From Tridacna crocea (Eukaryota; Mollusca; Bivalvia; Cardiida; Cardiidae), in contig OX031061.1 of the NCBI GenBank assembly GCA_943736015.1, positions 63,742,192-63,806,191 on the forward strand: a DNA stretch of 64,000 bases. The letters run 5' to 3'. Every line of letters begins with the position of its first letter. The stretch's first letter is position 1. The translations under genes were made by a program, and so were the position numbers. The notes under the pieces are model-generated. The model was not told the origin of the DNA, made no database searches, and worked only from the letters and a program-made list of their open reading frames with translations. Of the stretch, positions 717 through 64,000 are shown in pieces.

Positions 717-934
717 GGAACCCTTTACCGAACAATGCCGACTTCTAACGGCCTTGAGAAAGAAGCCTTTTAAAAACATTGTGGAAAAAGGAGAAAATGG
801 TGATTATTAGCATTTTCTCCTTTTCCCATAATGTTTTCTACCCTATCATACAAAATTTCATCATTTAAGCAACGTCTGAATTATCATCTGCAAATATTTT
901 CAAATTGGAACAATTTGGCCTGGTAAACATTTAA
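717..934 (+). mobile_element. Family A TTAA hairpin element, copy A1
   Basis: Left end decayed to GGAACCCTTTACC, right end GGTAAACATTTAA. Central palindrome is imperfect (GTGGAAAAAGGAG left, CTCCTTTTCCCAT right). It shares its right TTAA (931-934) with the next copy. Confidence 0.8.
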
Positions 935-1157
935 TCCTACCAAATAATCCCTGGTTTTTACGACCCAGGAATAGAAGCTTTTCGAAAACATTGTGGGAAA
1001 AGGAGAAAATGCTGGTAACCAGCATTTTCTCCTTTTCCCACAATGTTTTCTACCCTGATGGAGACAAATTCTAATTTTTGAGTGACGCTTATTTTCTCGT
1101 CTGCCGGTGCTTTCTATTTGCACCAGTCTAAAACTTTGACGTTTCGTATAGAGTTAA
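931..1157 (+). mobile_element. Family A TTAA hairpin element, copy A2
   Basis: Complete element with a near-perfect central palindrome around 1016 (GGGAAAAGGAGAAAATGC and its complement). It abuts A1 on the left and the family B element on the right, sharing one TTAA at each junction. Confidence 0.85.
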
Positions 1158-1338
1158 CCCTTTACTCCACAGATACTCATTTCTACGCATTACTCGTCAC
1201 GAGCAATTTCACCTTTTGCCACAATGTTTTCCATGCCATCAGAAGGTGTCATATACACATAAGAAAAAAGTTCATCCTTGCTGTTATTTAGGGTCAATTA
1301 GAGATAACATAGAAATGCCTTATGGGGTAAAGGGTTAA
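1154..1338 (+). mobile_element. Family B TTAA element
   Basis: Bounded by TTAACCCTTTACTCCA and TGGGGTAAAGGGTTAA, a terminal inverted repeat of about 14 bp with one mismatch. The interior lacks the family A palindrome, though a short stretch (TTGCCACAATGTTTTC) recalls its right arm, so B may be an A derivative. Its right end recurs in the chimera at 59021-59171. Confidence 0.7.
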
Positions 1339-1654
1339 GCAGTTACCACTCACTGATCACTTTATTGTACCCACTAATCCTTGCGTACCGAAAATAAGTC
1401 GGGGGCGGTACCAGGAAAATCTGTACCAGGAAAGCTCCGATCTGTCTACATACATCTAACAAAGTCTTTATGATATGGAATACCATTGCTTTCATTGTAT
1501 TATGTTACTGAATTATTTCAAGGGCATATTTAGATTTTTTTATGTTTTTCGTGAATCTTCTCTGTTTTTTTTTTTTTTTTTTTTACACAGGTAAAATAAT
1601 ACTTTTTGTTTTCCCTTTTCCTTTGTAAATGTAAAGAAAGTAATAAAGTTTACA
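1339..1654. other. No gene seen; poly-T tract
   Basis: Non-coding AT-rich sequence with a ~20-base poly-T run near 1565-1584. Confidence 0.5.
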
Positions 1655-1884
1655 TTATCTCATTACCAAACGGTAAAACTTTAGGTTTGTCCAAATCAAA
1701 AGCATATGCAGATGACAAAATAAAAGTGACTGAAAATTTGTAATTTGTTTTGTGAAGGGTAGAAAACATTGTGGGAAAAGGAAAAAAATGTTGGTAACCT
1801 GTATTTTCTTCTTTCTCACATTGTTTTCTAAAGGCTTCTTTCTCAGAGTCTTCAAAATTAGAGATAGTGTGATAATGGGTTACT
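1655..1884 (-). mobile_element. Family A TTAA hairpin element, copy A3
   Basis: Full-length reverse copy whose flanking tetranucleotides have decayed (TTAT left, TTAC right). The palindrome has unpaired changes, consistent with an older copy. Confidence 0.8.
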
Positions 1885-1931
1885 TAATATCTGGCATAAA
1901 CGACAACGCATGTTACTGCTGACATGGCATC

Positions 1932-2055
1932 GTATCAGGACAATTCCCCCCGGGACTATTGCCCCCCCCCCCGGACAATTCTTTGTAATGGGCAATGGTC
2001 CGGGGGAATTGTCTTCGGGGGTAAATAGTCCAGGGGGAAGGAATTGTCCGGATAC
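1932..2055. mobile_element. Small G/C-run foldback element
   Basis: Ends are complementary: GTATCAGGACAATTCC at the left and GGAATTGTCCGGATAC at the right, one mismatch. The interior repeats GGACAATTCCCCC-type words on both strands, giving a nested hairpin with a long C run (about 1966-1976). Confidence 0.6.
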
Positions 2056-2500
2056 CTACCAGCATAGGCGGAACTCTGGTCCGTAACCTACATCTATCAT
2101 TAAGACGCTACGCGTCACTTTAAGGAAATACCATCAAAAGAAACCCTCTCACTTTCCCTTTTTTTTTTTACTTTTCATTGATTTATTGCGACTAGTGTCT
2201 TACTACATTCGGTGATGAAAAATATGCCCGCACAGTGTTCGAAATTTGGTATTGTTAAAAAAATCTTAATAGCCCACTTTAAAATTTTATCACACAAATT
2301 CAACAATTAATGTCGATTCAGTTAGCAGCCCCCGCAAATATTGATGGAAAAGGACCAATCGTTTTGTTACATGAGATTTTTTTGTTGGCAAAAACCTGCT
2401 TCAAACAATATCACTTAATGTCCCCCCCACTCCCGAACCTTTTCTAGATATTCCAATCTCATTTTTCCTGTTGAAAAGTCTACATAATTTTCCTAACAGT
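2056..2500. other. No recognisable feature
   Basis: AT-rich non-coding sequence with short homopolymers; nothing recognised. Confidence 0.4.
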
Positions 2501-2644
2501 GAAGATATAGATTAGACGGCACAGAACGTGAAGTCTGACCTCGGTCTAAACCGTGCCATAAGATACGAATGGACTAGAAAATCACAAAGTTAGCAGCCAA
2601 AAGCAAATATATATGCTAGAAATTCATTCGTCGTATCGGAAATC

Positions 2645-2700
2645 ATAGATCTAAGATCAGACTGTGTATTATATGCAGTCTGATCTTGATCTGCACTTTC
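2645..2700. repeat. Family H palindrome (GATCAGACTGC hairpin)
   Basis: AGATCTAAGATCAGACTG at left pairs with CAGTCTGATCTTGATCT at right around a short AT loop. Same family as 18333-18397 and 62318-62380. A more decayed copy lies at about 2505-2560. Confidence 0.65.
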
Positions 2701-2740
2701 CATAAAAGCACACAAAGGTCGCACCTAACGGCCCAAATCT

Positions 2741-5589: not shown

Positions 5590-5760
5590 GTATTGGAAAT
5601 CCTGTGGAAGGAGACTGTGAAAAATATCATGGGAAAAGGAGAAAATCCTGGTAACCAGAATTTTTTCCTTTTCCCATAATATTTTACACCCTAAGGCAGA
5701 TATAAAGCTATTATTTCAGTTTTTACACACTTGTTGCCCACAAATATTTTTCCCCAGTTT
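5590..5760 (+). mobile_element. Decayed family A element, copy A7
   Basis: Palindrome at 5625-5690 retained, outer ends lost. Both arms share changes from the consensus (AAATAT and CATGGG/TATGGG in place of AAACAT and TGTGGG). Confidence 0.65.
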
Positions 5761-7339: not shown

Positions 7340-7501
7340 TTAACTCATTACCACACGAAAAGATTTCAGACCTGTTCTAGGGAAGGCTAGAAAACCTTGT
7401 GGGAAAAGTAGAAAATGCTGGTTACCAGCATTTTCTACTTTTCCCACAATGTTTTCAAAAGGCTTCTTTCTCTGGGTCATTAAAAGTCGGGAAAGAGTTA
7501 A
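7340..7501 (-). mobile_element. Family A TTAA hairpin element, shortened copy A9
   Basis: TTAA at both ends, left interior shortened by about 65 bp. Palindrome arms carry a paired change: AAAAGTAGAAAA on the left and TTTTCTACTTTT on the right, where the consensus has GGAG/CTCC. Confidence 0.85.
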
Positions 7502-10059: not shown

Positions 10060-10545
10060 AAGAAAATTTGTAATGGGTATATTACTCTGAAAACAAGGGA
10101 TGTTATGTGATAAAAGAAAATTCGTAATGAAAACAAGGGATGTTATGTGTTAACCCATTACCACACAATCCCTACTTTTGACGCCCCTGAGAAAGAAGCC
10201 TTTTGAAAACACTGTGGGAAAAGGAGAAAATGCTGGTAACCAGCATTTTCTCCTTTTCCCACAGTGTTTTCTACCCTTTTCAGAACAAATTTCTATTTTT
10301 CAGTCACCTTTATTTTTTCGTCTGCAAATGCTTTCAATTTGGACCAGTCCAAAATTTTCTCGTGTGGTAATGAGTTAAAAGAACATTCGTAATGGCGTAT
10401 ATTTCTCTGAAAACAAAGCATGTTATGTGATAAAAAGAAAATTCGTAAGGGCGTGTATTACTCTGAAAACAAGAGCGTTTATGTAATAAAAGAAAATTCG
10501 TAATCGGTATATAGCTCTGAAAACAAGGGAGATTATGTGAAATAA
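10060..10545. repeat. ~61-bp tandem repeat interrupted by a family A element
   Basis: Units containing AAATTCGTAATGGGTATA, CTCTGAAAACAAGG and TTATGTGATAAAAG occur before 10150 and again after 10378, about five units in all. The array continues on both sides of element A12. Confidence 0.7.
10150..10378 (+). mobile_element. Family A TTAA hairpin element, copy A12
   Basis: Intact ends and a perfect 67-bp palindrome. Both arms carry AACACTG/CAGTGTT where the consensus has AACATTG/CAATGTT, a paired change. It is inserted in a 61-bp tandem array. Confidence 0.92.
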
Positions 10546-11014: not shown

Positions 11015-11247
11015 TTTTCGTAGCGGATCGTCCGAACATGAACTTGTTCAAACGAGTTTATAGATCACAATTAAACTGTTTTAAAAGGATTTGATAAATA
11101 CAATATTTAGTTGAATGGGTAGAAAACATTGTTGGAAAAGCAGAAAATGCTGGTTACCAGCATTTTCTGCTTTTCCCAAAATGTTTTCAAAAGCCTTCTT
11201 TTCTCGGGGCCGTTAAAACTCGGGATTGTTTGACAAAGGGTGGAACG
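11015..11247 (-). mobile_element. Family A hairpin element, copy A13
   Basis: Outer ends decayed. Arms carry a paired change: AAAAGCAGAAAATGC left, GCATTTTCTGCTTTT right (consensus GGAG/CTCC). Confidence 0.75.
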
Positions 11248-14440: not shown

Positions 14441-14502
14441 AGTAAAAGGTTTCAGCCCATGTAAACCTGCACAGGCTGACGTAGATGGACTTTTTTGCAG
14501 AT
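14441..14502 (+). repeat. Family I hairpin remnant at the edge of the minisatellite
   Basis: AGTAAAAGGTTTCAGCCCA ... CCTGCACAGGCTGAC ... GACTTTTTTGCAGATG matches the hairpin at 19652-19718 with a shortened loop. Its last bases merge into the first minisatellite unit. Confidence 0.6.
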
Positions 14503-16315
14503 GAAAGACATAGGGCGATACTTTTTGCAGATGGATTACATGATGAATACTCTAAGCAATTGGATGAAATAGATAGATACTTGAACCAGATGGATTACAT
14601 GGATAGATACTTTTAGCAGATGGATGACATGGATGGATTGATACTTTTAGCAGAATGACATAGATGTATATTTTTGCAGATGAATGACATGGATGGATAC
14701 TTTAAGCAGATGGATGACATGGATGGATTGATACTTTTTGCAGATGAATGACATGGATGCATACTTTTAGCAGACGGATGACATGGATGGATACTTTTAG
14801 CAGATGGGTGGCATGGATGGATTGATACTTTTTGCAGATGAATGACATGGATGGATACTTTTTGCAGATGGATGACAAGGATGGATACCTCTAGCAGATG
14901 GATGACATGGATGGATGGATACTTTTAGCAGATGAATGACATGCGTGGATACTTTTAGCAGATGGATGACATAGATGGATACTATTAAAAGGATACTTTT
15001 AGCAGATGAATTACATGTATGTATACCTTAAACAGATTATTGACATGGTTGGATCGATACTTTTTGCAGATGAATGACATGGATGTATATTTTTTGCACA
15101 TGAATGACATGGATGTAAACTTTAAGCAGATGAATGACATGGATGTATACTTTCAGCAGATGGATGACATGGTTGTATACTTTCAGCAGATGAATGACAT
15201 GGATGGATACTTTATGCAGATGGATGACTTAGATGAATACTTTTAGCAGATGGTCATCATGGATGAATATTTTTTGCAGATGGGTAACATGGATGGATAT
15301 TTTTAACAGATGGTCGACATGGATGGATATTTTTGCAGATGGATGACATAGTTGGGAACTTTATGCAGATGGATGACATGGATGGATATTTTTTTGCAGA
15401 TTGATGACATGGATGAATACTTTAGCAGATGAATGACATGGATCGATGGATGACATGAATGGATACTTCTTGCAGATGATGACATGGACGGATCCTTTAA
15501 GCAAATGGTCGACATGGATGAATACTTTAGCAGGTGGATAGCATGGATGGATACTTCATGCAGATGGATGACATGAATGGATACTTCTTGCAGATGATGA
15601 CATGGATGGATACTTTATACAGATGGTCGACATGGATGAACACTTTTAGCAGATGGGTATATGAGTAGATACTTTTTTTGCAGATGGATGACATACTTTT
15701 TTTCCAGATGGATGACATGAATGAATACTTTTTCTGCAGATGGATGGTACGGATGGATACTTCTGGCAGATGGACGACATGGATGGATACTTTCCGCAGA
15801 TGGCTGACACTGATGGATCCTTTCAGCAGATGGATGACATAGATAAATACTTTTAGCAGATGGATGGTATAGATTGATACTTATTGAAGATGGACGCCTT
15901 GGATGGATACTTGAAGCAGGTGGGTGACATGGAAGGATACTTTCAGCAGATGGCTGACACCGATGGATCCTTTCAGCAGATGGATGACATAGATAAATAC
16001 TTTTAGCAGATGGATAACATGGATAAATACTGTTAGCAGATGGGTGGTATAGATTGATACTTTTTGCAGATGGACGCCTTGGATGGATACTTGATGCAGA
16101 TGGATGACATGAATGGATACTTTTTGCAGTTGGATGACATGGACAGAACTTTCTAGCAGATGGATGACACGGATGGATACTTCTAGCAGAATGATGACAT
16201 GGATCGATATTTTTTGCAAATTGGTAACATGGATGGATATTTTTTGCAGATGGGCGACATGGATGGATACTTTTAGCAGCTGGATGACATGGATGGTTAC
16301 TTTTTGCATGTGCAA
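14482..16315. repeat. 30-bp minisatellite (GATACTTTTTGCAGATGGAT)
   Basis: About 60 units of roughly 30 bp with consensus GATGACATGGATGGATACTTTTTGCA, varying mainly at TTTTTGC/TTTTAGC/TTTCAGC. Because 30 is a multiple of three, long open frames appear on the minus strand (15615-16343, ten-residue SIHPCHPSAK-type repeats); these are a by-product of period, not evidence of a gene. Confidence 0.93.
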
Positions 16316-17314: not shown

Positions 17315-17527
17315 TTAATCCTTTACAGACTTTTATAGACCCTGGGAAAGAATCTTTTGAAAAACATTATGGGAAAAGGAGAAAATGCTGGTTACCAGCA
17401 TTTTCTTCTTTTCCCATAATGTTTTCTACCCTATCAAAGAAAGACTTCTCCATTTGAGCCATATTGAAACTTTGAAAATGTTCTCAATTTGAACCAGGCT
17501 AAAATTTTGTCGTCTGGTAAAGGGTAA
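17315..17527 (+). mobile_element. Family A TTAA hairpin element, copy A17
   Basis: TTAA left, GTAA right. Arms carry a paired change: ACATTATGGG left and CCCATAATGT right (consensus TTGTGGG/CCCACAA). Confidence 0.88.
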
Positions 17528-20373: not shown

Positions 20374-20562
20374 TTAACCTTTTTTACCAGGCAATCCCGC
20401 GTTTCAACATGGGAAGGTACCCTTTGAAAACATTGCGGGTAAAATGAGAAAATGCTAGTTTACAAGCTTTTTCTCATTTTTCCCACAATGTTTTCTACAC
20501 TCGGAACACTCGAGTCACAGATAATTCGTCGACTGCGAATGCTTTTGATTTGGAAAATTCCA
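20374..20562 (+). mobile_element. Family A element truncated on the right, copy A21
   Basis: TTAA left; arms share a paired change (AAAATGAG left, CTCATTTT right). The right end is cut near 20562, where family G sequence begins. Confidence 0.75.
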
Positions 20563-20718: not shown

Positions 20719-20796
20719 GGCCAGCCGTGGGGGTCGAACCTACACCCTGATGATCACGAGTCCCGCGCTCTACCGACTGAGCTATGCAGGCTGGTC
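20719..20796 (-). repeat. tRNA-like sequence (SINE head or tRNA pseudogene)
   Basis: On the minus strand box A reads TAGCTCAGTCGGTAGAGC and box B GTAGGTTCGACCCC, with GCC/GGC pairing at the ends. The anticodon and T stems do not form canonically, so a functional tRNA is unlikely. Confidence 0.55.
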
Positions 20797-20833: not shown

Positions 20834-21300
20834 AGAGACCACTCCTTCATGCATGGCTTCGTCCCGATTTAAATGTAATACCTGACTACTGCGTTAGGAA
20901 GATATCTCTTTGGCTCAGTGGTTATGGTCTTGGTCTTTTAACTCATTACCACACAAGATTTTAGGTTTGTCCGAATCGAAAGCAACTGCAGAAAACAAAA
21001 CGAAAATGACTGAAAATTTAAAATTTGTTTTGTGAAGGGTAGAAAACATTGTGGGAAAAGGAGAAAATGCTGGTAACCAGCATTTTCTCCTTTTCCCACA
21101 ATGTTTTCTAAAAGCTTCTTTCACAGGGGCGTCAAAAGTAGGGATTGTGTGGTAAAGGGTTAAACCGCGAAAAAACGAGATGCTTGTCCGCCATTGGTTC
21201 GAATCCTGTCAGATGCGGTTTGTATTTCAGCTATGCATCTGTTCATCTGTTTCTTTGTTACGGACTTTGTTCGCAAGACCTTAGAAATCAGGCCTGTTTT
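20834..21300 (+). repeat. tRNA-derived SINE (family SA) split by a family A element
   Basis: GAGAGACCACTCCTTCATGC and GATATCTCTTTGGCTCAGTG (box A) lie before 20938; TTGGTTCGAATCC (box B) and TGTTTCTTTGTTACGGAC lie after 21163. The SINE is interrupted between its two Pol III boxes. Confidence 0.75.
20938..21163 (-). mobile_element. Family A TTAA hairpin element, copy A22
   Basis: Intact TTAA at both ends, consensus palindrome, inserted inside the SINE at 20834-21300. Confidence 0.92.
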
Positions 21301-24701: not shown

Positions 24702-24706
24702 GAAAT

Positions 24707-33319: not shown

Positions 33320-33554
33320 TTAAACCCTTTACCATACAATGTCGACTTTTAATGACCCTAAGGAAGAGGCCTTTTGAAAACTTTGTGGGAAAAGGAGAAA
33401 ATGCTGGTAACCAGCATTTTCTTCTTTTCCCGCGAAGTTTTCAACCCTATCAAAGAAAAATTGCATCATTTGAGCCACTATGATACTATCCTCTACATAA
33501 TTATGCTTTCGAGTACTATAGGTTTAATATATTCTGCTGTGAGGAAAGGGTTAA
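33320..33554 (+). mobile_element. Family A TTAA hairpin element, copy A25
   Basis: TTAA ends. Arms share a paired change: GAAAACTTTG left and CGAAGTTTTC right (consensus ACATTG/CAATGT). Confidence 0.85.
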
Positions 33555-34660: not shown

Positions 34661-34890
34661 TTAACTCTTTACCACACAAGAAAATTTTAGACTGATCCAA
34701 ATTGAAAGCATTTGCATCCGACAAAATAAAGTTGCCTAACAAGTAGAAATTTGTTCTGGGAAGGGTGGAAAACACTGTGGGAAAAGGAGAAAATGCTGAT
34801 TACCAGCATTTTCTCCTTTTCACATAGTGTTTTCAAAAGGCTTCTTTCTCAGGGGCATCAAAAGTAGGGATTGTGTGGTAATGGGTTAAC
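34661..34890 (-). mobile_element. Family A TTAA hairpin element, copy A27
   Basis: Intact TTAA ends; inserted in the dispersed repeat that has AGATAATTCT before and AACAAATGGCAGC after. Arms share AACACTG/TAGTGTT, a paired change at one position. Confidence 0.9.
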
Positions 34891-38700: not shown

Positions 38701-38750
<50 letters not shown>

Positions 38751-41471: not shown

Positions 41472-41503
<32 letters not shown>

Positions 41504-42245: not shown

Positions 42246-42347
42246 TACAGCACTTAGATATAAGCTGATCGTAAAGTTTTATGCATCATTGTGTAGCTAA
42301 GAAAGCCTATTTGAAACTCTGTTAAAAAGGTTTAGCACTCCTGAAAA

Positions 42348-44943: not shown

Positions 44944-45115
44944 GCAGGCGTTAGCAATGGCGAGTTATTCAAGGGCAAGCCTAAAAAATCCTCAGGCAAG
45001 GACATATTTTTGTATTTTTCCGCACAATTTTTACGCTTGCCTCTTAAAACCCTTTGATCTTATTTCCTGTGCTTGGTTTTAATCTGATTGCAAAGTTTGA
45101 AATACTATATTGTAG
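44944..45115 (+). repeat. Non-monomer block inside the satellite, copy 2
   Basis: GCAGGCGTTAGCAATGGCGA onward; inverted GGCAAGCCTAAAAA / TTTTTACGCTTGCC. Confidence 0.7.
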
Positions 45116-46362
45116 CCTAGGAAGCCATTTTGAATCCTTGTAAAAAGGTTTTTGCCACTACTGAAAACAGTGTGGAAAAAGTCGAAAAACCCTTCCGAAA
45201 ACGAGCCAATTTTTAAAAACTCCAAAAATTCGACCTCTTCAAGAAACCTTTCCAGGGCCCTACAACTCTTAGATATAAGCCGATCTTAGAGTTCTATGCA
45301 TCATTTTGTAGCTGAGAATGTCTATTTGAATCCCTGTGAAAAGGTGTTTCCCACTACTGAAAACAGTGTAGAAAAAGTCGAAAAACCAATCCGAAAATAG
45401 GCCGATTTCAGAAACGTAAAAAAAATCGACCTCTTCAAGAAACCTTTCAGGGCCCTGCAGCTCTTAAATATATGCCAATCTTTAAGTTCTATGCATTATT
45501 TTGCAGCTGAGATTGTTTATTTGATTCCCTGTGAAAATGTTTTGGCACTACTGAAAACAATGTGGAAAAAGTCGAAAAACCAATCCGAAAATGGGCCAAT
45601 TTTCGAAAAGTCGAAAAATTCGACCTCTTCAAGAAACCTTTTCAGGTGCCTGCAGTTCTTAAATATAAGCCGATCTTAAAGTTCTATGCATCATTGTGAA
45701 GCTGAGAATGTGTATTTGAATCTCTGTAAAAAAGTTTTTTTGCCACTACAAAAACCAGTGTGGAAAAAGTAGAAAATCCAATCCGAAAATGGGCCGATAT
45801 CGGAAAAGACGAAAAATTTGACCTCATCAAGAAACATTAACATTAACAAAAACGTTACAGCTCTTAGATATAAGCCGATCTTAATGTTCTATGCATCATT
45901 CTGTAGCTTACTACGTCTTTTTGAATCTCAATAAAAGGCTTTTTTGCACTACTGAAAATATTATGGAAAAAGTCGAAAAACCATTGAGAAAATTGGCAGA
46001 TTTCTCAAAAGTCGAAAAATTCGACCTCATCAAGAAACCTTTTCAGTGCCCTACAGCTCTAAAATATAAGCCGATCTTAAAGTTCTATGCATAATTTTGT
46101 AGCACAGAATGTGCATGTAAATCTCTGTAAAAAGGTTTTTGCCACTACTGAAAACAGTGTGGAAAAAGTCGAAGAACCATTCTGAATACGAGCCAATTTC
46201 TGAAAGTCGAAAAATTCGACCTCATCAAGCAACCTTTTCAGGGCCCTACAGCTCTTACATATAAGCCGATCTTAAAGATTTATGCATCATTGCGTAGCTG
46301 AGAAAGCCTATTTGAAACTCTGTTAAAAAGGTTTTAGCACTACTGAAAACAGTATAGTAAAA

Positions 46363-46535
46363 GCAGGCGTTAGCAATGGCGAGTTATTCAAGGGCAAGCC
46401 TAAAAAATCCTCAGACAAGGACATATTTTTGTATTTTTCCGCACAATTTTTACGCTTGCCTCTCAAAACCCTTTGATCTTATTTCCTGTGCTTGGTTTTA
46501 ATCCGACTGCAAAGTTTGAAATACTATATTGTAGC
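46363..46535 (+). repeat. Non-monomer block inside the satellite, copy 3
   Basis: As copy 2, nearly identical. Confidence 0.7.
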
Positions 46536-48166
46536 CTAGGAAGCCTTTTTGAATCCCTGTAAAAAGGTTTTTGCCACTACTGAAAACAGTGTGGAAAAAG
46601 TCGAAAAACCCTTCCGAAAACGAGCCAATTTTAAAAAACTCCAAAAATTCGACCTCATCAAGAAACCTTTTCAGGGCCCTACAACTCTTAAATATAAGCT
46701 GATCTTAAAGTTCTATACATCATTTTGTAGCTGAGAATGTTTATTTGAATCCCTGTGAAAAGGTATTTGGCACTACTGCAAACAGTGTAGAAAAAGTCGA
46801 AAAACAAATACGAAAATGGGCCTTTTTCTGAAAAGTCGAAAAATTCGACGTCATCAAGAAACCTTTTCAGGTTACTACAGCCCTTAAATATAAGCCGATC
46901 TTAAAGTTCTATGCATGATTTTGTAGCAGAGAATGTGCATTTGAATCTCTGTAAAAAGGTTTTTGCCACTACTGAAAACAGTGTAGAAAAAGTCGAAAAA
47001 CCCTTCCGAAAACGAGCCGATTTTTAAAAACTCCAAAAATTCGACCTCATGAAGAAACCTTTTCAGGGCCCTGAAACTCTTAAATATTAGCCGATCTTAA
47101 AGTTCTATGCATCATTTTGTAGCTGAGAATGTCTATTTGAATCCCTGTGAAAAGGTTTTTGGCACTACCGAAAACAGTGTGGAAAAGGTCGAAAAACAAA
47201 TACGAAAATGGGCCTTTTTCTGAAAAGTCGAAAAATTCGACGTCATCAAGAAACTTTTTCAGGTCCCTACAGCTCTTAAATATAAGCCGATCTTAAAGTT
47301 CTATGCATAATTTTGTAGCAAAGAATGTGCATTTGAATCTTTGTAAAAAGTTTTTTGCCACTACCGAAAACAGTGTGGAAAAAGTCGAAAAACCAATCCA
47401 AAAATGGGCCAATTTCTGAAAAGTCGAAAAATTCGACCTCATCAAAAAACCTTTTCAGAGCCCTACAGCTCTTAAATATAAGCCGATCTTAATGTTCTAT
47501 GCATCATTCTGTAGCTTACTACGTCTTTTTGAATCGCAATAAAAGGCTGTTTTACACTACCGAAAATATTGTGGAAAAAGTCGAAAAACCATTCAGAAAA
47601 TTGGCAGATTTCTCAAAAGTCGAAAAAATCGACCTCATCAAGAAACCTTTTCAGTGCCCTACAGCTCTTAAATATAAGCCGATCTTAAAGTTCTATGCAT
47701 AATTTTGTAGCAGAGAATGTGCATTTGAATCTCTGTAAAAAGTTTTTTGCCACTACTGAAAACAGTGTGGAAAAAGTCGAAAAACCAATCCGAAAATGGG
47801 CCTTTTTCTGAAAAGTCGAAAAATTCGACGTCATCAAGAAACCTTTTCAGGTCCCTACAGCTCTTAAATATAAGCCGATCTTAATGTTCTATGCATCATT
47901 CTGTAGCTGAGTATGTCTTTTTGAATCGTCGTAAAAAGTTGTCTAGCACTACTCAAAACAATATGGAAAAAAACGAAGAACCATTCTGAATACGAGCCAA
48001 TTTCTGAAAGTCGAAAAATTCGACCTCATCAAGCAACCTTTTCAGGGCCCTACAGCTCTTAAATATAAGCCGATCTTAAAGATTTATGCATCATTGCGTA
48101 GCTGAGAAAGCCTATTTGAAACTCTGTTAAAAAGGTTTTAGCACTACTGAAAACAGTATAGTAAAA

Positions 48167-48340
48167 GCAGGCGTTAGCAATGGCGAGTTATTCAAGGGCA
48201 AGCCTAAAAAATCCTCAGACAAGGACATATTTTTGTATTTTTCCGCACAATTTTTACGCTTGCCTCTCAAAACCCTTTGATCTTATTTCCTGTGCTTGGT
48301 TTTAATCTGATTGCAAAGTTTGAAATACTATATTGTAGCC
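48167..48340 (+). repeat. Non-monomer block inside the satellite, copy 4
   Basis: As copy 2, nearly identical. Confidence 0.7.
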
Positions 48341-48649
48341 TAGGAAGCCTTTTTGAATCCCTGTAAAAAGGTTTTTGCCACTACTGAAAACAGTGTGGAA
48401 AAAGTCGAAAAACCCTTCCGAAAACGAGCCGATTTCTGAAAAGTCGAAAAATTCGACGTAATTAAGAAACCTTTTCAGGGCCCTAAAGCTCTTAAATGTA
48501 AGCTGATCTTTAAGTTCTTGCATCATTCTGTAGCTGAGAATGTCTTTTTGAATCGCTGTAAAAAGTGTTTTGCCACTACTTAAAACAGTGTGGAAAAAGT
48601 CGAAAAAGCAATCCAAAAATGGGCCAATTTCTGAAAAGTCGAAAAGTTC

Positions 48650-51600
48650 ACCATTTTCAGTGGTCGAGTTCATTCAAATTTCACCTTATTTTTTAGCCCT
48701 GTTATCATGCTACAACATGGCAGTAAGGTTTTAGCTTATTCACCATTAATAAACGAGAAATTTACGGTATTTCTACACTACCCCCAAAAAAGGCGGAAAA
48801 AAGAAGCAATTGTCGGAGCTGACACGTTTTAAGGAGCAATACGGGTATCGAAAAGCTGTAAATTCATTTTCCGGCAAGGGTAGGGTAGGAAAATCGGATC
48901 GTACTCATAAATCCTCAATGTAAAATGGCGAAATTTAGCTTAAATACATTTTACAAAGTCTCTGCTTTAAGATGATACCAAGATTTCATCAATATCTCCA
49001 TCAATAAGGACTGAATGTTCTTCTAATTCGGTGTCGGGGTCACGGAAAAACGAAAGTAACTGGTTTTCGCGACGTAACCACCGCGCGCTGAAGAATTACA
49101 CCATTTTCAGTGGTTGAATTCATTTATATTTTTTCATTTTCAGGCTCTGTTATCTGGCTTCAAAATGGTTATAACAATTTAGCTTATTAACCTTTAATAA
49201 ATGACAAATTAACCATATCTCTACCCTACTCCCTAAAAAGGCGGAAAAAAGAATCAATTTTCGGAGCGCTTTCGGCCATTAATCCCACAAATAACATTTC
49301 TTTCCGTGGTCGAATTCATCTATTTTTTTTAGACCTGCTATTTGGCTACAACATGATAATGCAATTTTAGCTTAATAATCATTGATAAACGAGAAATTCA
49401 CTATATTTCTATCCTACCCCCTAAAAAGGCGAAAAAAAAGAAGCAATTTTCGGAGCAATTTCGGCCATAATTCCCACAAATAACATTTCTTGCCCCCTAA
49501 ACTCCGCCAGAATCTTAAGAACAATACCTCAAATTACTTGAAATCGATTTTTCTAGAAAAATAGACACATTTTAAGGAGCAATACGGGTATTGAAAAGCT
49601 GAAAATCCTTCATCAGGCAAGGGTAGGGTAGGCAAATCGGATCGTACACATAAATACCCAAGGTACAACGGCGAAATTTAGTTTAAATACATTTTACGAA
49701 GTCTCTGCTTTAAGACAATATCAAGATTTCATCAATATCTCCATTAATAAGGACAGAATGTTCTTCTAATTCGTTGTCGGGGTCCCGGTAATACGAAAAT
49801 CACGGGTTTTCGCGACGTAACCCCCGCACGCTGAAAAATTACACCGTTTTCAGTAGTCGAATTCATTTAATTTTTTTTATTTTGTAGCCCTGTTATCTGG
49901 CTACAACATGATAATACAATTTTAGCTTAATAATCATTAATAAACGAGAAATTTAAGATATTTCTACCCTACCCCCTAAAAAGGCGATAAAAAGAAGCAA
50001 TTTTCGGAGCGATTTCGGCCATAATTCCCACAAATAACATTTCTTCCCCCCGTAAACTCCGCCAGAATCTTAAGAACAATACCTCAAATTACTTGAATTT
50101 TTTTTTTAAGAAAAACTGACACGTTTTAAGGAGCAATATGGGTATCGAAAAGCTGTAAATTCATTTTCAGCCGACGGTAGGGTAGGGAAATCGCATCGTA
50201 CTCATAAATCCTCAATATAAAATCGCGAAATTTAGTTTAAATACATTTTACAAAGTCCCTGCTTTAAGACGATATCAAGATTTCATCAATATCTCCATTA
50301 ATAAGGACAGAATGTTCTTCTAATTCGTTGTCGGGGTCCCGGTAATACGAAAATCACGGGTTTTCGCGACGTAACCCCCGCACGCTGAAAAATTACACCG
50401 TTTTCAGTAGTCAAATTCATTTAATTTTTTTTTCATTTTGTAGCCCTGTTATCTGGCTACAATATTATAATACAATTTTAGCTTAATAATCATTAATAAA
50501 CGAGAAATTCACGATATTTCTACCCCACTCCCTAAAAAGGCGGAAAAAAGAAGCAATTTTCGGAGCGATTTCGGCCATAATTCCCACAAATAACATTTCT
50601 TTCCCCCTAAACTCCGCCAGAATCTTAAGAACAATACCTCAAATTACTTGAAATCGTTTCTCCAGAAAAACTGACACGTTTTAAGGAGCAATACGGGTAT
50701 CGAAAAGCTGTAAATCCATTTTTAGCCGAGGGTAGGGTAGGGAAATCGGCTCGTACTCATAAATCCTCAATGTAAAATGGCGAAATTTAGTTTAAATACA
50801 TTTTACAAAGTCCCTGCTTTAAGACGATATCAAGATTTCATCAATATCTCCATTAATAAGGACAGAATGTTCTTCTAATTCGTTGTCGGGGTCCCATTAA
50901 TACGAAAATCACGGGTTTTCGCGACGTATCCCCCGCACGCTGAAAAATTACACCGTTTTCAGTGGTCGAATTCATTTACTTTTTTTTTCATTTTGTAGCC
51001 CTATTATCTGGCTACAACATGGTAATACAATTTTAGCTTAATAATCATTAATAAACGAGAAACTCACGATATTTCTACCCCACTCCCTAAAAAGGCGAAA
51101 AAAAGAAGCAATTTTCGGAGGGATTTCGGCCATAATTCCCACAAATAACTTTTCTCCCCCCGTAAACTCCGCCAGAATCTTAAGAACAATACCTCAAATT
51201 ACTTGAAATTTTTTTTATAGAAAAACTGACACGTTTCAAGGAGCAATATGGGTATCGAAAAGCTGTAAATTCATTTTCAGCCGAGGGTAGGGTAGGGAAA
51301 TCGGATCGTACTCATAAATCCTCAATGTAAAACGGCGAAATTTAGTTTAAATACATTTTACAAAGTCCCTGCTTTGAGACGATATCAAGATTTCATCAAT
51401 ATCTCCATTAATAAGGACAGAATGTTCTTCTAATTCATTGTCGGGGTCCCGGTAATACGAAAATCACGGGTTTTCGCGACGTAACCCCCGCACTCTGAAA
51501 AATTACACCGTTTTCAGTAGTCCAATTCATTTAATTTTTCTTTTATTTTGTAGCCCTGCTATCTGGCTACAACATGATAATACAATTTTAGCTTAATAAT

Positions 51601-54440
51601 CATTAATAAACGAGAAATTTACGATATTTCTACCCCGCCCCCTAAAAAGGCGAAAAAAAGAAGCAATTTTCGGAGCGATTTCGGCCATAATTCCCACAAA
51701 TAACATTTCTTTCCCCCTAAACTCCGCCAGAATCTTAAGAACAATACCTCAAATTACTTGAAATCTTTTCTATAGAAAAACTGACACGTTTTAAGGAGCA
51801 ATATAGGTATCGAAAAGCTGTAAATCCATTTTTAGCCGAGGGTAGGGTAGGGAAATCGGATCGTACTCATAAATCCTCAATGTAAAATGGCGAAATTTAG
51901 TTTAAATACATTTTACAAAGTCCCTGCTTTAAGACGATATCAAGATTTCATCAACATCTCCATTAATAAGGACAGAATGTTCTTCTAATTCATTGTCGGG
52001 GTCCCGGTAATACGAAAATCACGGGTTTTCGCGACGTAACCCCCGCACGCTGAAAAATTACACCGTTTTCAGTAGTCGAATTCATTTACTTTTTTTTTTC
52101 ATTTTGTAGCCCTATTATCTGGCTACAACATGATAATACAATTTTAGCTTAATAATCATTAATAAACGAGAAATTCACGATATTTCTACCCCACTCCCTA
52201 AAAAGGCGGAAAAAAGAAGCAATTTTCGGAGCGATTTCGGCCATAATTCCCACAAATAACATTTCTTTCCCCCTAAACTCCGCCAGAATCTTAAGAACAA
52301 TACCTCAAATTACTTGAAATCGTTTTTCCAGAAAAACTGACACGTTTTAAGGAGCAATACGGGTATCGAAAAGCTGTAAATCCATTTTTAGCCGAGGGTA
52401 GGGTAGGGAAATCGGATCGTATTCATAAATCCTCAATGTAAAATGGCGAAATTTAGTTTAAATACATTTTACAAAGTCCCTGCTTTAAGACGATATCAAG
52501 ATTTCATCAATATCTCCATTAATAAGGACAGAATGTTCTTCTAATTCGTTGTCGGGGTCCCGGTAATACGAAAATCACGGGTTTTCGCGACGTATCCCCC
52601 GCACGCTGAAAAATTACACCGTTTTCAGTAGTCGAATTCATTTAATTTTTCTTTTATTTTGTAGCCCTGTTATCTGGCTACAATATTATAATACAATTTT
52701 AGCTTAATAATCATTAATAAACGAGAAATTCACGATATTTCTACCCCACTCCCTAAAAAGGCGGAAAAAAGAAGCAATTTTCGGAGCGATTTCGGCCATA
52801 ATTTCCACAAATAACATTTCTTCCCCCCTAAACTCCGCCAGAATCTTAAGAACAATACCTCAAATTACTTGAAATCGTTTTTATAGAAAAACTGACACGT
52901 TTTAAGGAGCAATATGGGTATCGAAAAGCTGTAAATTCATTTTCAGCCGAGGGTAGGGTAGGGAAATCGGATCGTACTCATAAATCCTCAATGTAAAACG
53001 GCGAAATTTAGTTTAAATACATTTTACAAAGTCCCTGCTTTGAGACGATATCAAGATTTCATCAATATCTCCATTAATAAGGACAGAATGTTCTTCTAAT
53101 TCATTGTCGGGGTCCCGGTAATACGAAAATCACGGGTTTTCGCGACGTAACCCCCGCACTCTGAAAAATTACACCGTTTTCAGTAGTCCAATTCATTTAA
53201 TTTTTCTTTTATTTTGTAGCCCTGCTATCTGGCTACAACATGATAATACAATTTTAGCTTAATAATCATTAATAAACGAGAAATTCACGATATTTCTACC
53301 CCACCCCTTAAAAAGGCGAAAAAAAGAAGCAATTTTCGGAGCGATTTCGGCCATAATTCCCACAAATAACATTTCTTTCCCCCTAAACTCCGCCAGAATC
53401 TTAAGAACAATACCTCAAATTACTTGAAATCGTTTTTCCAGAAAAACTGACACGTTTTAAGGAGCAATATGGGTATCGAAAAGCTGTAAATCCATTTTTA
53501 GCCGAGGGTAGGGTAGGGAAATCGGATCGTACTCATAAATCCTCAATGTAAAATGGCGAAATTTAGTTTAAATACATTTTACAAAGTCTCTGCTTTAAGA
53601 TGATACAAAGATTTCATCAATATCTGCATAAATAAGGGCAGAATGTTCTTCTAATTCGTTGTCGGGGTCCCGGTAATACGAAAATCACGGGTTTTCGCGA
53701 CGTAACCCCCGCACGCTGAAAAATTACACCGTTTTCAGTAGTCGAATTCATTTAATTTTTTTTTTATTTTGTAGCCCTGTTATCTGGCTACAACATGATA
53801 ATACAATTTTAGCTTAATAATCATTAATAAACGAGAAATTTACGATATTTCTACCCTACCCCCTAAAAAGGCGAAAAAAAGAAGCAATTTTCGGAGCGAT
53901 TTCGGCCATAATTCCCACAAATAACATTTCTTTCCCCCTAAACTCCGCCAGAATCTTAAGAACAATACCTCAAATTACTTGAAATCTTTTTTATAGAAAA
54001 ACTGACACGTTTTAAGGAGCAATATGGGTATCGAAAAGCTGTAAATCCATTTTCAGCCCAGGGTAGGGTAGGAAAATCGGATCGTATTCATAAATCCTCA
54101 ATGTAAAATGGCGAAATTTAGTTTAAATACATTTTACAAAGTCCCTGCTTTAAGATGATACCAAGATTTTATCAATATCTCCATTAATAAGGACGGAATT
54201 GTCTGCTAATTCGGTGTCAGGGTCACGGAAAAACGAAAATCACGGGTTTTCGCGACGTAAGACCCGCGCGCTGAAGAATTACACCATTTTACAGTGGTCG
54301 AATTCATTTATATTTTTTTCAATTTGTAGCCCTGCTATCTGGCTACAACATGGTAATGAAATCCTAGCTTAATAGCCATTACTAAACGAGAAATTCACAA
54401 TATTTCTACCCCTCCCCCTCCAAATTGCCGAAATGAAGCT
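48650..54440 (+). repeat. 555-bp satellite array
   Basis: The anchor GTCGGGGTCC(C/A) (GTCAGGGTCA in the last unit) occurs near 49035, 49776, 50330, 50885, 51440, 51995, 52551, 53106, 53661 and 54216: spacing 554-556 bp after the first interval. The first interval (741 bp) contains a partial duplication near 49300. Unit landmarks: TTTTCGCGACGTAACCCCCG, TCTGGCTACAACATGATAAT, CCCCCTAAACTCCGCCAGAA, GAGGGTAGGGTAGGGAAATC. First and last units are the most diverged. No ORF. Confidence 0.94.
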
Positions 54441-54978
54441 TTTTCCAGAGCGATTTTGGTACTAATTCTCACCGATTTTCTGTATATATTTTACTCAAAT
54501 GAAATCAAACCGATAGGGATTGAAGATATATTTAAAATTATCACATTTCCAGGTTGGTATCGATCTTTTTCTGCACCATATTTTAGTAATAAATTGGTCA
54601 TGCAATCCTCGCTCGATGGTGTTTGACAGACAGATATGCAAACCTCTGATATCAATGAAGCTTTTTTCCTTTCCTTTATTGCTCGGAAGACGCGTCAGAC
54701 ATCCTCAAAGTCGATCAAATACTTATTTTTCAAAAGATGATGACAGTTTTAGTTTTATGTGCAAAAATGCGCTCTTCTGTTTTTGTCTGTCTCTGTCTGC
54801 TTGACAGAAACTGTCTGTCAAAAATAATGAAAAAAAGAAAACCATATAACTTCAAAACCACCCAATGTTTTTTCATGAAACTTTTTGAAACTATTGTGCT
54901 CTACATGAAGTCGATGCCTGGTGAAAATTACGAAAAAATTCGATAAGGTTTTGGAGATAATTACAAAATGGTTTTTCT
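54441..54978. other. No supported gene
   Basis: AT-rich. A 94-codon frame (54520-54804) has no recognisable domain. Confidence 0.4.
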
Positions 54979-55216
54979 CTTAGTGGGGGCATCGCCTACC
55001 TCTGTCTGTCTATAAAGTGAGTGTCTGACTAAATTTGCGAAAAAATCAAATTGCAGTATTTTTGTAAATATTCAAAATTTTTGCACAAAACTTACATGCG
55101 TTACTAATTGAGTCATAAACAATCACTTCACGTAATTTTATCGAAGTGGAATATTTAGAAGGTTTGTAAATCGGGTCAGAAAGATTTTGAGAGAGGTAGG
55201 CGATGCCCCCACTAAG
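54979..55216. mobile_element. Element with perfect 25-bp inverted repeats
   Basis: CTTAGTGGGGGCATCGCC... (54979-55003) and its exact complement ...GGCGATGCCCCCACTAAG (55192-55216) bound 188 bp of AT-rich sequence without ORF. Confidence 0.6.
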
Positions 55217-55365
55217 CAAAATTTCGTTGCTGACAGACAGGGATAGGGACAAAAAATTTTAAAATTTAAAAGTCTTAAAATTGCCCAAAACATGTAAAAA
55301 AATGCAAAAAACCCGGAAAAAAAGTGACAAAAATTGGCGTCCCGAGGTCAAACGGTTTTGTCCCG

Positions 55366-55369
55366 AAGC

Positions 55370-55401
<32 letters not shown>

Positions 55402-55412
55402 GGACAGACAGA
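55366..55412 (+). repeat. (CAGA)n microsatellite
   Basis: GACAGACAGACAGACAGACA, about ten units with a CGGA interruption. Creates overlapping spurious frames on both strands. Confidence 0.9.
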
Positions 55413-55570
55413 TATGGACAGACGGAGAGACAGCCATGGAGATTCAAGTATACCCCCTCCACTACATTGTGGAGGGTATAATGAATACCCTGAATGTATT
55501 AACAGATACATTTTGTTGGAATACACCAAATTACAGAAATACTGATGAAAAACATTGATAACAGCAAACA

Positions 55571-55786
55571 TTGACCCTTTACCAAACAATCCCTGGTTTT
55601 TACGACCATGAGATAGAAAGAAGCCTTTTGAAAACATTGTGGGAAAAGGAGAAAATGCTGGTAACCAGCATTTTCTCATTTTTCTCACGTTTTCTACCCT
55701 GCTGGAAGCAAGTTTCAGTTTTTGGTCATCTGCAAGTACTTTCATTTGTCACTGGTCTAAAATTTTGTCGTTTGGGAAAGGGTTAA
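55571..55786 (+). mobile_element. Family A TTAA hairpin element, copy A30
   Basis: TTGA left, TTAA right (shared with A31). Right arm is shortened (CTCATTTTTCTCACGTTTTC). Confidence 0.85.
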
Positions 55787-57374: not shown

Positions 57375-58125
57375 TCTTACGAACAAACTCCATAACAAAG
57401 AAACAAATGAACAAATGCATGGCAGAAATAAGGGACCACGCAGGATTTGAACCCTAGAACATCCGGACGAAAGGCAAATATCTTAACCACTGAGCCAAAG
57501 AGATATCTCCATAATGCAGAAGTTAGGTATTGTAATTAAACCAGGACAAAGCCATGCATGAAGGAGTGGTCTCCCATAACACATCCCTTCTTAACCCTTT
57601 ACTTAACAATCCCTGGTTTTTACCGGTCAGGAATAGAAGCCCTTTGAAAAAATTGTGGGAAAAAGAGAAAATGCTGGTAACCAGCATTTTTTCCTTTTCC
57701 CACAATGTTTTCTACCCTGTCATACAGAAAAATCATCTTTTTAGCACCTGTTAATTTGTCACCTGCAAAATGCTTTCAATTTGGTCAGGTCCAAAATTTG
57801 CCGTTTGGGAAAGGGTTAAAGTCATCATTTATCAATGACTAAAAGCCTTATTAGGCAGGAAGTCCCTTCTTGGATGACAAATGGGATTAATGACCAATCC
57901 CAGACGAGTCCCCATCTTACGAATAAAGTCCGTAACAAAGAAACAAATGAACAAAAGCGTGGCAGAAATAAGGGACAGGGCAGGATTCATACCTTAGAAT
58001 GCTCGGACTAGAGGCCAATACCTCAACCACTGTGCCAAAGGGATATCTCCCTAACACAGGTGTTAGATATTGTATTCAAATCAAAAGAAAGCCATGCATG
58101 AGGGAGTGGTCTTCTATAACAATAT
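57375..58125 (-). repeat. Dimeric tRNA-derived SINE (family SA), second copy
   Basis: Two minus-strand SINE units (about 57383-57590 and 57930-58125) joined by the same spacer as at 26351-26882 (AGTCATCATTTAT, AAGCCTTATTAGGCAGGAAG, GAGTCCCCATCTTACGAA). The spacer is interrupted by a family A element at 57591-57819. More diverged than the copy in gag. Confidence 0.8.
57591..57819 (+). mobile_element. Family A TTAA hairpin element, copy A34 (filled site)
   Basis: TTAACCCTTTACTTAACAAT ... GGGAAAGGGTTAA. Flanks CATCCCTTC and AGTCATCATTTAT match the empty site at 26568-26571, where a single TTAA is found. Confidence 0.95.
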
Positions 58126-60194: not shown

Positions 60195-60423
60195 TTTACC
60201 CTTTACCAAACAACCATATTTTGAACTCTCCAAAATGGTAAGAATTTGCTGACAACAACTTGAAAGTATCTAAAATGATGAAATTTGTATTTGAAAGGTT
60301 AGAAAGCATTGTGGGAAAAGGAGAAAATGCTGGTTACCAGCATTTCCTCCTTTTCCCACAATGCTTTCGTAAGGCTTCTCCATCAGGGTCGTTAAATCTC
60401 AAGATCTTGTGGTAAAGGGTTCA
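60195..60423 (-). mobile_element. Family A hairpin element, copy A38
   Basis: Ends worn (TTTACCC left, GGGTTCA right). Arms share a paired change: AGAAAGCATTG left, CAATGCTTTC right (consensus AAAACATTG). Confidence 0.85.
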
Positions 60424-61892: not shown

Positions 61893-62097
61893 CATATCAT
61901 GGCGGTTGGTGACGCACCTGTGTTTCCTGGCTTTCTCTAATTTTTTCAAAAGCCACCGACTACTTTTCTCACTTGCTTCGGCAGAGGTGAGAGGCGAAAA
62001 TACGCCGGTAAGAAAGTTTGCCTCAACCGGGTATCGAACTCACAACCACCAGGTTATGAGTCCGACTTGCTCACCACTGAGCCACCCGGGCGGGCAG
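61893..62097 (-). repeat. tRNA-derived SINE (minus)
   Basis: Minus strand CCGGGTGGCTCAGTGGTGAG (box A) and GTGAGTTCGATACCCGG (box B). The body matches 13742-13927 (TGTTTCCTGGCTTTCTC on the plus strand). Confidence 0.75.
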
Positions 62098-62317
62098 ATC
62101 GCGATGGAAAAATATTTAAATGTATGTTATATTAAATGAAAAGAACTACGTACAAACTCAAGAATCGTTAGTAAAATGGTACCCGGGTTTGTTTATGGAT
62201 GTGCGGTTGGCTGGCGGCTTTTTTGGGGGGCTGGTGGCTTTTTAAAGATGGTGCGGATAATGCTGAGTGCTTAGATCAACTCTCGAGCTGCTAAGCACGA
62301 CTCAAAAACCCTTTGCA
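62098..62317. other. No recognisable feature
   Basis: Non-coding sequence. Confidence 0.35.
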
Positions 62318-62380
62318 GACAGTGTAGATCCATGATTAGACTGCACAGAACGTGCAGTCTGATCCTTGATCTACACTGTC
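62318..62380. repeat. Family H palindrome, best copy
   Basis: GACAGTGTAGATC ... AGACTGCACAG pairs with CGTGCAGTCT ... GATCTACACTGTC over 63 bp. Confidence 0.8.
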
Positions 62381-63394
62381 CAAAGAGGAGATTCTTCCCC
62401 CCCCCCCCCAAAAAAAAAAAAGAATTAACCGTTGAAATAGCAAAATTTGGTCTTTTTACTTTAGATTTAGGTTTGAAAGTTTCATTTTATTAAATACAGC
62501 AGAAAAAGAGTCAAAGAAAAGGGGGAAAATGTATGCCAATGCTCTGTTTGTGTTGGAGTGTGCGAAGGAGGGTGTCGTGTACTTAGTTTACTGGAATCAA
62601 CTTTTATTAAATTATCCCAGATTTGTCAGGAACTATTTTCGTGCACAAAACATTTTTTTTCATTCGCGTGTGTGCATTGTAAATAAACAAACTGAAATGA
62701 CAATGACTGATGTATACTACGGCTGACAAAGAGGACGAAATATTTGTTGATAATTGATAACCTGCGTTGGAGTGCGGGGGTCCTAAATTCCAAAATTGTC
62801 CCTGGAATAGACTTAATTACATTTTCTCATTTTGTAGCTCAAACCGTCTTTTTCATTCATACGTGCACTGTAAACAAACAAACTAAATTTAGTGACTCAG
62901 AGCTGTGTATTTTTGGTAAGTTTCAAGCGCATTGATATTCCTGGCGCACTAATTGCGTACTTGACATTGACCAGTCGGCCTTTCTACAAAGAGAAGTTCA
63001 AGGGTAATTGGCTTTCATCTTTTTTTTAAATAAAATCATTTTTCACATTCAAAAGAACAACTGAAGATAGTTCTAAACAATGGGGATACTTTCATCATCA
63101 TGTTTTGATCTATTTTAGTCTTTGTTCAGATCATTGGAAATCAATCGGCTTTGATACTTGTATGCCTCCCCCACCGCCGCCATTTATTGATTACCGGACT
63201 TGAAAATAGTCCCTCGTACCACGGCACCAACTTCATTTGACACCACTACAAAGATACACCACCGCTAAATGCACCGTCATGATACTATTGCGAATTCTAA
63301 ATTTAGTGCATAACCTCGATTTCACTCGTATTTGATACTAATTGTTGTTTACCATGCTATCTCTGTAGCTTTTCTCTAGATCTTTACTGCAGCG
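62381..63394. other. No supported gene
   Basis: C and A homopolymers at 62398-62420; two short frames (62529-62726, 62744-62935) share the word GTAAA(C/T)AAACAAACT but show no domain. Confidence 0.4.
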
Positions 63395-63603
63395 TTCCAC
63401 GCTCAAAGACCTTGAGAAAGGTATGTGAACATGTGCTTGGAAAAAATAGAACCTGGTGTTATCCAGCAATTTCTCATTTTCTATGAATGTTTTTCATTCT
63501 TTCAACGACTCATTAGATCACTTTGGCCATCCTTATGTCCTGGTCTGCAAATACTTTCAAACGGGAAAATTCTAAAATGCCGCCTGGTAAAGTGTTCAAT
63601 TAA
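63395..63603 (+). mobile_element. Decayed family A element, copy A41
   Basis: CAAAGACCTTGAGAAAGG, CAGCAATTTCTCATTTTCTA, CTGCAAATACTTTCAA and GGTAAAGTGTTCAATTAA remain. Confidence 0.6.
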
Positions 63604-63642
63604 TTGTCGAGTGACAAACTTGTCCGGTGGAGGTATAACATA

Positions 63643-63692
63643 ACGTCGATTTACTTCGAAAACTCGTAACTACAGCTTGTAACGAAGTAAAC
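63643..63692. repeat. Hairpin element CGTCGGTTTACTTC, shortened copy
   Basis: ACGTCGATTTACTTCGAAAA, CTCGTAACTACAGCTTG, then GAAGTAAACGACC; inner part of the right arm missing. Confidence 0.6.
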
Positions 63693-63904
63693 GACCATTG
63701 TACATGTTGCCTGCATTCCTATTGAAATAAGATTTTGGCTTCTTTTTTAGCTTCTACGTCATTCGTATGAAAAGAAGAAAATCCACATTTTTAAAAATCC
63801 ATGGCTGAAAAAGGAAGCCACCAAATATAGCAAAGGCTATGAAGCTCCATTGTTCTATCACATGAACATCCAAATATTCATTCTTCGATCATCAAACACT
63901 GTTA

Positions 63905-63950
63905 CTAACAAGAGAGCCACTGGCTCTGAAGCGCTCACCTGAGTAAAGTT
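63905..63950 (+). repeat. AGAGCCACTGGCTCTGAAGC repeat fragment
   Basis: GAGAGCCACTGGCTCTGAAG is a short palindrome followed by CGCTCACCTGAG. I recall similar wording as a common dispersed motif in bivalve DNA; not verifiable here. Confidence 0.35.
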
Positions 63951-63958
63951 ATCCATGC

Positions 63959-64000
63959 TTAACCCATTACCAAACGACAATATTTTAGACTGGTCCAAAT
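63959..64000 (-). mobile_element. Family A element cut by the window end, copy A42
   Basis: TTAACCCATTACCAAACGAC ... TTTTAGACTGGTCCAAAT, the standard first 40 bases of a reverse copy. Confidence 0.85.

Follow-up and report, generated by a model that had tools for sequence, protein, structure and literature searches.

Paired changes in the palindrome arms of a TTAA-flanked miniature element of Tridacna crocea probably reflect slow homogenization in place

The palindromic element and its copies in the window

The stretch analysed here, 64,000 bases of the Tridacna crocea genome (G000:C6:63742192-63806191) and referred to below as the window, carries scattered copies of a short element, family A, with an internal palindrome. 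An earlier note on this sequence had pointed to copies in which a base departs from the consensus in one palindrome arm while the mirror base in the other arm carries the complementary change, and had proposed either copying of one arm onto the other or selection for pairing. We found that such paired changes exceed chance, inside a large majority of unpaired changes.

The family A element is 229 bases long and is flanked by TTAA at both ends. It runs TTAA, left end CCCATTACCACAC, palindrome, right end GTGTGGTAATGAG, TTAA, with a palindrome of 33+1+33 bases that starts 55 bases from the left end. Coding for a transposase is impossible at this length. A complete copy at 10150..10378 (plus strand), which belongs to a young subfamily with C at pair 8 and has the same length as the element at locus L014, has terminal inverted repeats and is bordered by TTAA left and right. 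Family A is a TTAA-flanked miniature inverted-repeat transposable element (MITE), present in very many copies and possibly piggyBac-like or Kolobok-like, and the hairpin is its internal palindrome. A search of the genome (1.05 Gb in 31 contigs), whose totals for large repeat families may be underestimates, gave 9,684 matches to the family A pattern with both ends in TTAA, 114,471 occurrences of the inner 43 bases in perfect palindromic form, and 271,782 matches to a 28-base word of the right flank when up to three mismatches were allowed. The count of AACATTGTGGGNAAAAGGAG (6,745) was rejected as a measure of family size, as that pattern calls for one more base between GGG and AAAA, so that it represents an insertion variant; no claim on density was drawn from it. 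At Rfam gathering scores no RNA family was found at the hairpins, the sole match in the window being a transfer RNA (tRNA) at 20719-20791.

The positions given in the earlier note were element starts, with the hairpins about 30-110 bases downstream, and all the paired changes that it quoted were located in the sequence. The following is from an automatic table unless stated otherwise. The palindrome at 5621..5685 (plus strand) is changed in both arms, in complementary fashion, at pair 6 (C>T) and pair 10 (G>A), and carries two single-arm changes. Pair 20 is changed in both arms at 7390..7456 (minus strand; G>T, one single-arm change) and at 11122..11188 (minus strand; G>C, two single-arm changes). 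Further complementary changes were found at pair 10 (G>A) in 17361..17426 (plus strand; two single-arm changes) and at pair 5 (A>G) in 60302..60368 (minus strand; one single-arm change). The palindrome at 20426..20495 (plus strand) contains insertions and has both arms changed to match at pair 19 (G>T); it was read by eye, an indel having kept it out of the automatic count. At 33376..33442 (plus strand; details by eye) pair 7 alone (A>T) is paired, and three further positions are changed in one arm only. Two of the quoted examples, in the elements at 10150 and 34661, do have the paired bases, but these are a common subfamily allele at pair 8 (T>C in both arms), seen at 10205..10271 (plus strand) and at 34768..34834 (minus strand; three single-arm changes).

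Both arms are unchanged in the palindromes at 984..1050 (plus strand) and 21042..21108 (minus strand), and the one at 57646..57712 (plus strand), with single-arm changes only, is typical of the majority. With pair 8 excluded, the 33 readable copies of the window held 122 single-arm cells (64 left-only, 58 right-only), nine cells with the complementary change in both arms and eight with different changes in the two. The paired changes reported for many copies are thus real, but the selection of examples gave a one-sided picture.

Pairs 14, 21, 26 and 31 distinguish a related palindrome, family B, from family A: at each of them both arms show a swap from G-C to C-G or from A-T to T-A, and some copies have part of this set. 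Family B occurs in the window at 1193-1231 and in sampled loci at L011 (2739), L019 (413), L024 (2429) and L026 (2520). Among 240 palindromes from the window and the long loci, 34 were not family A-like; other palindromic repeat families lie in the window at 2839, 13976, 18364, 19684 and 62348, and in the loci. The interval 36916-55630 of the window yielded no family A hairpin.

Excess of complementary changes over independent substitution

The window was extended with a genome sample of 175 loci (L001-L175), giving 403 distinct hairpins. At least 26 of the 33 pairs were readable in 366 of them, and the other 37 were dropped. After removal of 23 family-B-like hairpins 343 copies remained, in which pair 8 was excluded from the counts. 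These copies held 967 single-arm cells, 55 complementary doubles and 41 other doubles. From a model of copy and site rates 35.5 complementary and 40.6 other doubles were expected, and off-mirror doubles (1,646) amounted to 0.986 of the same model. When right arms were shuffled among copies of similar divergence, a mean of 36.0 complementary doubles was obtained, and 0.15% of 2000 shuffles reached 55. The excess over independent substitution for which the earlier note had asked is therefore present. It was confined to copies carrying 3-7 changes, where 32 doubles stood against 12.3 expected. In copies with exactly two inner changes, both fell on the same pair in complementary form in six cases, about 0.83 being expected.

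A few copies showed paired changes at neighbouring pairs, such as those at L125 (position 167; pairs 19 and 20) and at L148 (position 1158; pairs 28, 31, 32 and 33). Pairs in runs of equal bases were too few to use (5/5 in two copies). The centre base of the 343 copies was A in 289, T in 25, G in 20, C in 6 and a gap in 3; as raw counts, the ratio of A>T to A>G was 25:20 there and 72:110 at single-arm changes of stem A.

Two approaches were abandoned. Polarity from nearest neighbours by flank miscalled pair 8 as a derived C>T change; a fixed consensus, together with tests by permutation and on a tree, took its place. A maximum-likelihood fit to 114 young copies, which held three paired events, put the copying rate at 8, but its curve was flat and its time scale lay at the edge of the grid, and it was not used. 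In these 114 copies stem divergence was half that of the flanks (0.0155 versus 0.0355).

Genome-wide counts at pair 20

The genome-wide mirror count covers one pair, pair 20, in inner 43-mers that are perfect elsewhere; left and right were assigned by taking the centre base as A, which is true for most copies but not all. G/G was found in 114,471 copies, A in the left arm only in 4,925, A in the right arm only in 3,014, and A/A in 1,182. Independence predicts 130 A/A copies, and the odds ratio is 9.12. An off-mirror control at one position pair, left 20 A with right 28 A, gave 73 copies against 58 expected (odds ratio 1.26), right 28 A alone being present in 1,348 copies. The quotient of mirror and off-mirror odds ratios is 7.2, with an approximate 95% interval of 5.7-9.3. 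The two arms differ in that left-only A is more frequent than right-only A.

This contrast bears on independent recurrent mutation, in which hot sites and a mixture of ages would inflate double changes. Such mutation covers most raw doubles in decayed copies (21 seen and 20.9 expected in those with at least eight changes). However, the non-complementary doubles (41 versus 40.6) and the off-mirror double (73 versus 58) stay near expectation and the complementary mirror doubles do not, and we regard it as extremely unlikely to explain the pairs.

The first 20 A/A copies listed on contig 1, L021 excluded, were fetched and compared by their flanks. Of these, 19 could be placed on a flank tree and required 18 parsimony steps. 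Their mean flank distance was 0.260, compared with 0.134 in random sets of 20 drawn from 125 inner-perfect copies, and their flank distance to the reference was 0.173, compared with 0.081 in the controls. Mismatched outer pairs numbered 0.55 per A/A copy and 0.78 per control copy, the latter figure being inflated by two subfamilies, 10A and 12A, described below. The A/A copies thus sit in dissimilar flanks, and therefore descent does not explain them.

Ectopic gene conversion, in which whole inner stems including A/A would be copied between elements with different flanks, likewise puts A/A stems on many flanks, and the flank test does not separate it from copying between arms. It presupposes A/A donors, however. 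Moreover, the one-arm states, which could be copied equally well, stand at 4-7 times per arm-state against their expected partners (4,925 and 3,014 versus 1,182), and a duplicated insertion described below would call for a very short donor tract. We consider this explanation unlikely.

Under a simple model of arm-to-arm copying, the counts in otherwise perfect stems correspond to copying at pair 20 at about 12 times the G>A rate. This estimate is higher than that over all copies given below, which is suggestive only, as a hint that copying depends on the perfection of the stem. Pair 20 may also be a hot spot.

Subfamily descent and the flank-only tree

Shared ancestry was one of the grounds on which the earlier note would have given up its proposal. 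If subfamily descent alone were at work, founders with two matching changes would have been amplified and their copies would have inherited the pair. This is true of pair 8, where both arms are C in 120 of the 366 readable copies, and of the family B alleles, which were changed in both arms in 8 copies at pair 14, 6 at pair 21, 20 at pair 26 and 16 at pair 31.

We left out pairs 8, 14, 21, 26 and 31 when changes were counted on a tree built from flanks alone. The tree held the 336 of 424 elements that had 130 or more flank bases, and stem changes were placed on it afterwards. Terminal branches carried 699 changes, with 28 complementary and 21 other mirror co-changes. In simulations, flanks and stems were evolved on the flank tree, the tree was re-inferred and the count was repeated, with 60 runs per rate. 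Without arm copying a mean of 8.6 complementary co-changes was obtained (maximum 17), and none of the 60 runs reached 28. Copying at 1, 2, 3 and 4 times the site mutation rate gave 16.2, 24.9, 31.3 and 37.8; none of 60 runs reached 28 at rate 1, and three of 60 runs gave 28 or fewer at rate 4. Other mirror co-changes, 21 observed, averaged 21.0 without copying and stayed within 20.9-21.8 at all simulated rates. Averaged over pairs and copies, copying would proceed at roughly 2-4 times the site mutation rate, a range that is only rough because the simulation lacks a constraint on source lineages.

Part of the paired differences, such as pair 8, is hence descent, and the excess persists with the subfamily positions left out (28 versus 8.6). 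Descent alone also has to meet the dissimilar flanks of the A/A copies, the two different paired alleles at pair 20 in the window alone, and a paired difference between two copies of a single insertion. As a full account it is very unlikely.

A paired change in a resident copy

Three duplicated element pairs were found in all, and one of them showed a paired difference. Loci L021 and L022 are two copies of one 845-base segment with eight differences, two of which are the mirrored bases of pair 20; L022 has the family consensus. An outer mismatch at pair 10 is common to both copies and nothing else changed near pair 20. In this one case the paired difference arose after insertion, that is, in place. 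The retained mismatch and the unchanged surroundings are what would keep an ectopic donor tract very short.

The same case argues against an origin of the pairs during transposition, in a hairpin or single-stranded intermediate and not in the resident copy. That origin also predicts scattered independent pairs, but the difference between L021 and L022 postdates the segmental duplication, and no excess was present in the youngest copies, those with 0-2 changes (2 seen, 1.7 expected). We hold it to be highly improbable.

One-arm subfamilies and decay of the stem

Two young subfamilies, 10A and 12A, were amplified with a mismatch in the left arm only. Among young copies with the left mismatch, 5 of 55 had the mirror base in the right arm, compared with 6 of 245 copy-positions without it, and four of these six were in copies that are diverged by eye. 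Both paired 12A copies carry both subfamily flank markers, and among the three paired 10A copies each flank marker is present in two. The subfamilies could thus amplify without pairing, and the mirror base is completed only slowly. Six right-only copies were examined for a turn of the entire hairpin that would move left 10A or 12A to the right, and none of them had the subfamily flank markers.

In 150 young copies defined by their flanks, singletons were equally frequent in arms and flanks, at 0.0041 and 0.0057 in the former and 0.0052 and 0.0050 in the latter. Variants present in more than three of these copies amounted to 0.0000 and 0.0016 in the inner stem, 0.031 and 0.016 in the outer stem, and 0.024 and 0.039 in the flanks. 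With singletons equal in this larger set, the difference between stem and flanks lies in the shared variants. This fits single copies that decay about neutrally and source lineages that are constrained. Over six strata of flank divergence (299 copies) the mismatched inner pairs rose from 0.34 to 2.86 per copy, out of 21. The palindrome had been described as self-correcting while the rest of the element decays; in that form the description is not borne out by the equal singletons, the amplified one-arm subfamilies and the rising mismatches.

Selection on the paired stem, as a hairpin RNA or a DNA cruciform, would keep or restore pairing. The rarity of widely shared inner-stem variants agrees with it, as do the internal branches of the flank tree, which carry 63 stem changes where about 150 were simulated and so point to constrained source lineages. 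It is at odds with the singleton frequencies and with the spread of two subfamilies with an unpaired mismatch. Changes that keep a G-U pair, judged for a plus-strand RNA, were not favoured (A>G 54 left and 56 right; G>A 195 left and 143 right, the left surplus being largely due to 10A and 12A), which lends no support to the proposed selection for RNA pairing; the changes may still fit a minus-strand RNA. Overall we find selection quite unlikely as the source of the paired changes.

Arm-to-arm copying as the proposed explanation

We put at roughly 70% the probability that the paired changes come from slow in-place homogenization of the inverted-repeat arms of this TTAA-flanked MITE, a process that is already known. 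After insertion the arms would mutate independently and about neutrally, and occasionally one arm would serve as template for the other, through template switching in replication or repair of an extruded hairpin; either molecular route is inferred. A one-arm mismatch would then become a matched pair, by restoration of the old base, which is invisible, or by completion of the new one, which appears as a paired change. Some paired differences would be added by subfamily descent, with the inner stem better preserved in source lineages than in single copies. That one arm is copied onto the other, as the earlier note proposed, is supported by the mirror-specific excess (odds ratio 9.1 versus 1.26 off-mirror), by A/A stems on many flank backgrounds, and by the one in-place case. 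Such copying does not keep most palindromes intact.

Several results weigh against this explanation. The other two duplicated pairs, L055/L080 and L069/L096, differ in their stems by unpaired changes only. Neither the youngest copies, with 0-2 changes, nor the most decayed, with at least eight, show the excess (2 versus 1.7 and 21 versus 20.9). The simulation does not match every count, with about 150 internal-branch changes predicted and 63 seen, and with 880-1,050 mismatched parent states on terminal branches compared with 169 seen; we read this misfit as a constraint on source lineages that is absent from the simulation. Multi-base converted tracts and flips of the centre base did not show clearly. 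In copies with one variant inner pair, changes outside pair 20 were paired in three and single in 55, one of the three being family-B-like, while at pair 20 three were paired and 12 single-arm. At genome scale the excess may thus be particular to pair 20.

More tentatively, compensatory change may take a two-step path. A source with a one-arm mismatch would amplify, as 10A and 12A did, copying would complete the mirror base (5/55), and the repaired copies could found the next paired subfamily. Copying in near-perfect stems might then run at about ten times point mutation per site, and the MITE could serve as a ready genome-wide meter of germline template switching at the level of base pairs. 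We see this as possible, though somewhat less than an even chance.

Relation to known systems

It is a long-standing question how stems come to carry matching changes, and the rates at which templates are switched in the animal germ line are hard to measure. Correction of quasipalindromes, by which imperfect palindromes become perfect ones, was reportedly treated by van Noort and others in 2003.

Template-switch homogenization of short inverted repeats was described in genes of yeast and in other organisms (Abraham and Hazkani-Covo 2021, PMC8604942). As is proposed for family A, copying there turns an arm into the exact complement of its partner; arms are short in both, and the small clusters of changes in yeast may have a counterpart in the few family A copies with neighbouring paired changes. 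The yeast repeats, however, are single-copy coding repeats compared between strains, whereas family A is one high-copy MITE palindrome in which unpaired, intermediate and paired states were counted. Template switching was also proposed to create and maintain RNA hairpins (Monttinen and Loytynoja 2022, PMC8794818), with compensatory pairs likewise attributed to arm-to-arm copying without a selected intermediate. The RNA genes there are under structural selection, whereas single-copy stems of family A decay about neutrally. For inverted repeats in mitochondrial genes of Nematomorpha the authors suggested repeat conversion (PMC6649704); arms there, too, stay identical as the sequence varies, but most repeats over 30 bp are perfect and most family A copies of the older strata are mismatched. 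The stem of DINE-1 of Drosophila is said to be kept by compensatory mutations (PMC2374699). It resembles family A as a transposon stem that varies, there between species, with pairing retained, and differs as a stem of 7-11 nt near the 3' end described at the level of the consensus, compared with 33-bp arms inside a TTAA element counted copy by copy.

The searches of the open literature found no paper on template switching from arm to arm within a MITE stem. As far as these searches show, the process is known and the material is new, namely a high-copy MITE stem with counted intermediates. More than 100,000 palindrome copies are scattered over the genome, each dated by its flanks, and their unpaired, intermediate and paired states can be counted position by position, off-mirror pairs serving as a built-in control. 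A further caution is that a selected RNA need not lie behind "compensatory" changes in the stem of a transposon.

Other features of the window

The tRNA-like Rfam match at 20719-20791 lies on the minus strand, scored 35.2 bits, and is possibly a tRNA-derived repeat. Self-comparison revealed two tandem arrays, at 42245-48649 and 49301-54472, of which the latter repeats about every 555 bases. Two sets of direct repeats, 24171-24705 and 30982-31516 (100% over 535 bases), and 25401-26026 and 32355-32980 (99.84% over 626 bases), flank Gypsy-type open reading frames; from the sequence they appear to be a young long terminal repeat retrotransposon, perhaps with a rearranged end. The Gypsy-type polyprotein has close relatives, and two named ones at about 75% identity lie in sequence bins of Thiodiazotropha, bacteria that live as symbionts in lucinid clams. 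A run of degenerate tandem repeats (about 75% alike) occupies 14474-16308, together with a repetitive open reading frame of 242 residues on the minus strand.

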